Made by a program: the position numbers and the translations under genes
Shown here: positions 58,211-59,608 of the stretch, piece after piece
How positions within the stretch are numbered: position 1 is the first letter of the stretch
How the letters are laid out: each line of letters opens with the position of its first letter
The notes under the pieces: model-generated
Database searches by the model: none
What the model was told of the DNA's origin: nothing
What the model saw: only the letters and a program-made list of their open reading frames with translations
NCBI RefSeq assembly: GCF_018739865.1
Contig: NZ_JADOER010000011.1
Span: 248,001 to 312,000, forward strand
Reading direction: 5' to 3'
Length of the DNA stretch: 64,000 bases
From: Leptothoe kymatousa TAU-MAC 1615
GTDB lineage: Bacteria; Cyanobacteriota; Cyanobacteriia; Phormidesmidales; Phormidesmidaceae

Positions 58211-59608
58211 ATGCTAAATCGATTTCGGGCGCTGGGTTTGTTAACACTAGCGCTGAGTAGCTTAGGCTTAGTGGGCTGGAACTGGAGAAACCAGAACAAT
58301 ACCCAAACGCTACCGCAAGATCCCTATGTTCAAGTTTTCTTGAACCACAGAAACACCAATAGCTATAGGGATCCCTACCGGGGGCACCAGCGCACTGGTG
58401 ACAACCTGGAACAAATACTGATTGATGCGATTCATCAGGCCAACATGTCTGTTGATGTAGCGGTTCAGGAACTGAACCTACCGGACATCGCCCAAGCCCT
58501 GATCGATAAAGCCAACGAGGGCGTGATCGTCAGAGTGATTTTAGAAAATCAATACAGCCAGCCCTGGAGCCAGAAAAACCTGAGCGGGATAGCCGACCAA
58601 GACCGCTACAGTCGAGGAAAACAGGAAAATTTATGGGCATTTGGGGATCTCAATGGAGATGGACAGATTGCCTCGGGGGAAGCCGCCCAAAGAGATGCGG
58701 TTTTCATGTTGCGCCAGGCGGGTATTCCCATCGTCGATGATACGGATGATGGCAGCAAGGGCAGCGGCTTAATGCACCACAAGTTTGTGGTGGTGGACAA
58801 TCGCCAAGTGCTGACCGGCACCGCAAACTTTACACTTTCGGGCATCCATGGAGACTGGCTGGTGCCAGAAAGTCTTGGCAATGCCAATGCGCTGCTGAAC
58901 ATCCAAAGTGAGGCACTGGCGACAGCCTACCGTCAGGAATTTGAGCTGATGTGGGGCGATGGGCCAGCCGGGGCAGACAATAGTGCCTTTGGTTCACCGA
59001 AACCCATACGACCCACCCAAACGGTAATGTTGCCCGGGGGTGACGTCACCGTTCAATTTTCTCCCCACCGCAAAGACACGCCCTGGGAACAAACCACCAA
59101 CGGAGTGATCGCTAGCACCCTGAGTAAAGCGACCCAATCGACGGATCTAGCCCTATTTGTGTTTACGGATCAGGGCGTTGCCAATGCCCTCCAGGCGAAT
59201 GCCAAGCTCCAGGTGCGTACTTTGATTGACCGTAGTTTTATTTATCGCTATCACAGCGAGGCCTTGGATATGTTGGGGCTAGCGCTACCCGACGGTCGTT
59301 GTCAATATGAAAAAGAGAATCGCCCCTGGAGTAAGGCCATTGCTGAGGTGGGCTATCCAGAACTCGCAGATGGCGACAAACTCCACCACAAGTTTGCAGT
59401 CTTGGATAATCGCACGGTCATCATTGGCTCCCATAACTGGAGTAAGGCTGCCAACCACACCAATGATGAGAATCTTTTGATTATTGACAATCCCACCGTA
59501 GCCCAACACTTTACCCAAGAGTTTGAGCGACTTTACCAGAATGCAAATTTAGGCAAAACAGAGTATCTGTTGCAGCAGATGCAGAAGACTCAGAAAAAAT
59601 GTGGCTAG
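58211..59608 (+). CDS. Phospholipase-D-like protein with EF-hand-type insert
   Basis: Two PLD half-sites are present: GLMHHKFVVVDNRQVLTGTA-NF around residue 188 and KLHHKFAVLDNRTVIIGSHN around 397, each with an HxK(x4)D motif in the form HHK..VVDN. The N-terminal part has a signal-like helix (LTLALSSLGLVGW), so the protein is probably exported or anchored. Between the first beta core and the first HKD lies D146-LNGDGQIASG-E157, a textbook EF-hand loop (DxNxDGxIxxxE), so calcium may affect activity. Its target (lipid or nucleic acid) is unknown. The ATG start has GGGAG upstream. 465 residues. Confidence 0.87.
   Translation: MLNRFRALGLLTLALSSLGLVGWNWRNQNNTQTLPQDPYVQVFLNHRNTNSYRDPYRGHQRTGDNLEQILIDAIHQANMSVDVAVQELNLPDIAQALIDKANEGVIVRVILENQYSQPWSQKNLSGIADQDRYSRGKQENLWAFGDLNGDGQIASGEAAQRDAVFMLRQAGIPIVDDTDDGSKGSGLMHHKFVVVDNRQVLTGTANFTLSGIHGDWLVPESLGNANALLNIQSEALATAYRQEFELMWGDGPAGADNSAFGSPKPIRPTQTVMLPGGDVTVQFSPHRKDTPWEQTTNGVIASTLSKATQSTDLALFVFTDQGVANALQANAKLQVRTLIDRSFIYRYHSEALDMLGLALPDGRCQYEKENRPWSKAIAEVGYPELADGDKLHHKFAVLDNRTVIIGSHNWSKAANHTNDENLLIIDNPTVAQHFTQEFERLYQNANLGKTEYLLQQMQKTQKKCG

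Follow-up and report, generated by a model that had tools for sequence, protein, structure and literature searches.

The gene at positions 58211-59608 (+ strand) of the window, i.e., the whole 64,000-nucleotide stretch of Leptothoe kymatousa DNA analyzed here, starts with ATG and encodes a 465-amino acid protein of the phospholipase D (PLD) superfamily in which, judging from its sequence family, residues D146-E157 form the loop of a genuine single EF-hand predicted to bind Ca2+. It is an HKD enzyme into which an EF-hand has been built. In the literature searched, which included few subscription journals, we found no description of an EF-hand paired with a PLD-like enzyme in cyanobacteria. We propose that the protein is probably an exported, envelope-anchored two-HKD phosphodiesterase, a nuclease whose substrate would be extracellular or periplasmic DNA, with an EF-hand that would bind Ca2+ and a putative link to DNA uptake. 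A single copy of the gene was found in the host genome, whose assembly is 75% complete.

Architecture and location of the protein

A Pfam search with the 465-residue protein matched PLDc_2 over two stretches (E 1.1e-41) and also the PLDc active-site motif. It can be assigned to the PLD superfamily on the basis of its two HxKx4D motifs, in which the catalytic residues are conserved. HKD motif 1 (HHKFVVVD, residues 189-196; 58775-58798, + strand) is followed by GTANFT, and H189, K191, D196, and N206 are invariant. HKD motif 2 (HHKFAVLD, residues 392-399; 59384-59407, + strand) is followed by GSHNWSKAAN..NDENLLII, and in this region H392, K394, D399, G406, S407, N409, and E420 are invariant in the homologue alignment. 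The AlphaFold2 model, run on a 65-sequence family alignment, has a mean pLDDT of 91.9 and a pTM of 0.90.

The EF-hand hairpin is inserted between a strand terminating in the conserved E112-N-Q-Y115 and the helix that leads to HKD motif 1. According to DSSP on the model, it comprises an E helix (residues 132-145; 58604-58645, + strand), whose R-Y-x-E-F-x-x-L/F-V signature is kept in the homologues, a loop (146-154), a helix at 155-161, and a further helix at 163-169, with confidences of 91-98 over the block. The calcium loop proper, D146-E157 (DLNGDGQIASGE), is encoded at 58646-58681 (+ strand), and the F helix, which begins at loop position 10 as in the canonical EF-hand arrangement, is encoded together with the following helix at 58673-58717 (+ strand). 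D162, located between these two helices, is invariant in the homologue alignment. The original prediction had described this open reading frame and placed the loop after the first strand region and ahead of the first HKD motif, exactly as we find it; the loop is modelled with pLDDT values above 90 as part of a helix-loop-helix and not as a buried beta-turn.

Several features support the proposal that the protein is exported. Residues 1-29 (58211-58297, + strand) form a hydrophobic putative export signal or membrane anchor, modelled with low confidence, which has no lipobox, as is also the case in the close relatives L001, L069, L082, and L008. Using a crude regular expression, a lipobox-like motif was detected in 92 of the 140 homologues having an N-terminus. 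The window protein has two cysteines only, Cys364 (59300-59302, + strand) and Cys464 (59600-59602, + strand), and 148 of the 158 rows of the alignment have both, suggesting that they form a disulfide outside the cytoplasm. From these sequence features, we conclude that the enzyme is a putatively exported and envelope-anchored protein.

A lone EF-hand within an HKD enzyme

The homologues were collected from 80 loci of a genome collection, 40 regions retrieved in a survey covering 292 genomes from the phylum, and one Vibrio plasmid relative, and 146 distinct sequences were aligned for the loop counts. The loop is present in 125 of them, including the window protein, i.e., it is kept in most close homologues, whereas its absence from all of them would have spoken against the insert. 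Position 1 is D and position 12 is E in all 125; position 3 is always N or D, position 5 always D, N, or S, and position 9 mostly S or T. The entropies of the ligand positions 1, 3, 5, and 12 are thus 0, 0.65, 0.55, and 0 bits, respectively, whereas positions 2, 4, 7, 10, and 11 vary freely (2.4-3.2 bits). The window loop has 12 residues with acidic or amide ligands at positions 1, 3, 5, and 12, as expected for an EF-hand. The strict PROSITE-type pattern of 13 residues is satisfied by 91 of the 125 loop-bearing homologues, and the window protein departs from it only at position 13 (A158).

The hairpin of the window protein taken in isolation did not match any Pfam EF-hand model, and this is what could be expected if the loop were a surface turn that matches DxNxDG by accident. 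Nevertheless, such a coincidence is extremely improbable and is contradicted by the ligand positions kept in 125 homologues, by the helix-loop-helix model, and by profile matches to the calmodulin family. Hairpins of the homologues match the Pfam models EF-hand_5, EF-hand_1, and EF-hand_6, with E-values for EF-hand_5 that reach 3.5e-6 when segments of 45 residues are searched and a best score of 26.7 bits vs a cut-off of 25.9. A family profile of the 45-residue hairpin retrieved 463 distinct PDB sequences with E-values no higher than 0.5, and nearly all of the best 60 of these 463 are named EF-hand calcium-binding proteins; the top match is 2m7n, a protein with four EF-hands (5e-14), and calmodulins appear near 1e-8. 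Thus, while the window sequence alone is ambiguous, its family establishes the EF-hand well beyond chance, which bears out the calcium loop originally proposed. The hairpin resembles calmodulin-type EF-hands in its 12-residue loop (D1, N3, D5, E12), in the F helix that follows, and in the profile matches, but it differs from them, and from dockerins, in that a lone loop sits inside an enzyme domain. A dockerin was also considered and rejected, since there is a single loop and only one homologue gave a weak dockerin match (E 0.053).

To place the loop in the history of the family, we have built a tree from the PLD core, excluding the columns of the insert, by a quick method that leaves many branches weakly supported. 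The loop requires six changes on this tree. Both the deepest cyanobacterial branches and the relatives from Bdellovibrionota, a group in which the gene occurs in about 10% of 192 sampled genomes, have the loop, and it is absent in the distant outgroups, i.e., the Vibrio plasmid protein (L111) and two non-photosynthetic members of the phylum (L147, L148). This distribution reads as a loop that is ancestral in the family, gained once and then lost or degraded about five times. Loss or degradation is seen in a Cyanobium-like clade (L063, L120-L123) and in Laspinema (L055, L056). In family f13 (L112-L117), the entire EF-hand helical hairpin is cleanly missing and the HKD motifs are retained, so that these proteins are natural loop-minus enzymes. 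A divergent loop-less clade (L067, L072, L073, L080), which may represent a second paralogue within the family, has the two helices joined by a short turn. Three Bdellovibrionota proteins (L163, L168, L172) form a supported clade with an enlarged degenerate loop (e.g., DAYGDRDGKPSLAE), in which the metal site may have been altered or lost. Judging from the alignment and the tree, the insert is old and under selection for its ligand pattern. As a separate observation, the homologues L076/L155, from a Burkholderiales metagenome-assembled genome, and G257:C1:360630-361918 are split in two adjacent frames, either by a frameshift, by decay, or by an assembly error.

HKD enzymes catalyze through a phosphohistidine and use no metal. 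The persistence of intact HKD motifs after loss of the loop agrees with this metal-free chemistry and indicates that neither the site nor Ca2+ is needed for catalysis in general. We propose that the loop would bind one Ca2+ at the concentrations found in the envelope, and that this ion would stabilize, and possibly adjust, the hairpin flanking the catalytic cleft, taking no part in catalysis. A structural calcium site fits the data equally well as a calcium-responsive one. A purely structural role, where one permanent Ca2+ rigidifies the cleft-shaping insert and senses nothing, is a rather good prospect and is compatible with a nuclease; it is in line with a lone loop instead of a cooperative pair, with an envelope location exposed to external Ca2+, and with the losses, which often leave a short turn in place of the loop and keep part of the E helix and the F helix. 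The strict retention of the ligands across wide divergence would, however, be equally expected of a sensor. The EF-hand described here is a conserved case, from bacteria, of an HKD enzyme that incorporates a calcium loop, and the natural loop-minus relatives provide built-in controls for it.

Nature of the substrate

The PLD-like character attributed to the protein holds as far as superfamily and intact HKD motifs are concerned, but its reading as a phospholipase is weak and is better narrowed to a probable nuclease. The best PDB sequence matches are mitochondrial cardiolipin hydrolase (mitoPLD), Nuc, and NucT, and the context of motif 2, GS-N-[WF]-[ST]..A...N.EN, resembles that of Nuc in the alignment. 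Among the NCBIfam models, NucT scores highest but stays below its curated cut-off (82 vs 297 bits), and the protein is not assigned as NucT; the cut-offs of the bacterial cardiolipin synthase TIGR04265 (24.6 vs 290 bits) and of the DISARM protein DrmC (62.7 vs 133 bits) were not reached either.

The Foldseek search with the model gave 7e0m, a bacterial PLD from Serratia plymuthica, as best match, followed among the top neighbours by the ssDNA exonucleases PLD3 and PLD4. The first of these, like the window protein a two-HKD bacterial fold, is annotated as a phospholipase D, and its homology is remote, with a weak sequence match (E 0.0078) and 15% identity. PLD3 and PLD4, the animal lysosomal 5' exonucleases, share with the window protein two HKD motifs per chain, an N-terminal anchor, and a similar fold, but they are eukaryotic and only 15-17% identical to it. 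To our knowledge, they have no EF-hand insert.

NucT and Nuc have one HKD motif per chain and have been described as dimeric. Nuc from Salmonella and NucT from Helicobacter pylori share HKD catalysis and the motif-2 context with the window protein, and NucT also its envelope location, but they have no EF-hand, whereas here two HKD motifs in one chain are combined with the EF-hand insert. NucT has been assayed in 1 mM EDTA (PMC5714352).

A C-terminal helix-hairpin-helix (HhH) domain, HHH_3, was found in 36 of 65 sampled homologues, in many of which a ComEA-type HhH follows the residue equivalent to Cys464. The tail of one of them (L006) scores above the cut-off of the ComEA HhH model TIGR00426 (58.4 vs 53.1) and matches the ComEA structures 2duy and 8dss, and the C-terminal extensions of the homologues have a median pI of 9.5. 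ComEA, the competence DNA receptor, has no catalytic domain, and the window protein, like its nearest clade, has no ComEA-type HhH tail. None of the loop-less rows carries the tail, and there are too few independent pairs for a loop-tail correlation. A nuclease-superfamily domain joined to a ComEA-like HhH is also seen in the DNase/HhH fusions of the DNaseTA type, described in a paper that names PLDc_SF among the HhH architectures in a figure legend; in the passages of that paper covered here, PLD fusions are not the object of study and the EF-hand is not mentioned (PMC4777378).

The NucT, Nuc, and mitoPLD sequence neighbours, the PLD3/PLD4 folds, and the ComEA-type tails of the homologues suggest a nuclease rather than a phospholipase, and DNA is most likely the substrate in preference to lipid. 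The fact that the top fold match is annotated as phospholipase D and that the window protein itself has no DNA-binding tail counts against this assignment. A true exported phospholipase D or transphosphatidylase activated by calcium would suit that fold match and the membrane anchoring, but we consider it quite unlikely given that the sequence neighbours of solved structure are mostly nucleases or mitoPLD, that the context of motif 2 is Nuc-like, and that more than half of the sampled homologues have ComEA-type DNA-binding tails.

Co-distribution with comEC and genomic context

The putative link of the protein to DNA uptake comes from its co-distribution with comEC, detected as PF03772, over the 139 genomes of the same class (cyanobacteria) in the 292-genome survey, with counts collated by hand from the survey lists. 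The two genes agree in 133 of the 139 genomes, with 112 having both and 21 neither. The six discordant genomes comprise three with the PLD-family gene and no comEC match, i.e., the window's own genome (G000, 75% complete), G101, and G278, and three with the reverse (G051, G157, G264). A Fisher test gave 1e-16, a value computed with 18 double absences instead of 21, which takes no account of relatedness and should not be treated as a probability. The double absences belong to three lineages (the f20 members with small genomes, f21, and part of the genus g47 of f6), and the co-distribution is thus confounded by relatedness, with effectively three loss lineages. The f20 group also lacks kaiA, which served as control gene, but kaiA is kept in f21 (G111, G123) and in the genomes G147, G183, and G268 of g47 despite the loss of comEC and the PLD-family gene, indicating that the shared loss in these two lineages is not simply the loss of every gene. 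Among the non-photosynthetic members of the phylum, comEC often occurs where there is no PLD-family gene, and this counts against an essential role.

A near-equal alternative is that the same exported nuclease degrades environmental DNA for nutrients such as phosphate or purines and not for uptake, with Ca2+ as a fold stabilizer, a role whose chances we put a little short of even. A membrane anchor fits either job. NucT of H. pylori has been reported to act in purine salvage as well as in transformation (PMC5714352), and the main text of the transformation screen in Synechococcus elongatus mentions neither "nuclease" nor "phospholipase" (PMC7125226), which likewise counts against an essential role. 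Against the nutrient role, there were no Pho-box repeats upstream of 129 homologues, where matches were no more frequent than in shuffled sequence, and the co-distribution with comEC includes the losses in the two lineages that keep kaiA.

For the processing of double-stranded DNA in the cyanobacterial envelope ahead of ComEC, a review enters ComA with "nuclease activity?" (PMC7690421). A conserved anchored nuclease that has a DNA-binding tail in many species and is co-lost with comEC would be a concrete candidate for this step. As a more speculative and on balance doubtful extension, the family might be a so far unrecognised nuclease that processes DNA during natural competence in cyanobacteria, an envelope-tethered functional counterpart of EndA, often with a ComEA-type clamp, that would be switched or stabilized by Ca2+ through the EF-hand.

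Concerning the origin of the gene, a phage source was discarded as no phage record was found, and so was a plasmid source, the only plasmid relatives being Vibrio proteins at 36%, of which the one examined has no insert. In 41 of 75 loci, outside the window, the gene lies near a protein containing MQIYLDYSATT, by eye a cysteine-desulfurase-like start, which gives no functional hint. Finally, the matches to the clock gene kaiA in two f20 genomes (G264:C1:1508381-1508560 and G141:C29:99517-99696) contain stop codons and are possible pseudogenes.
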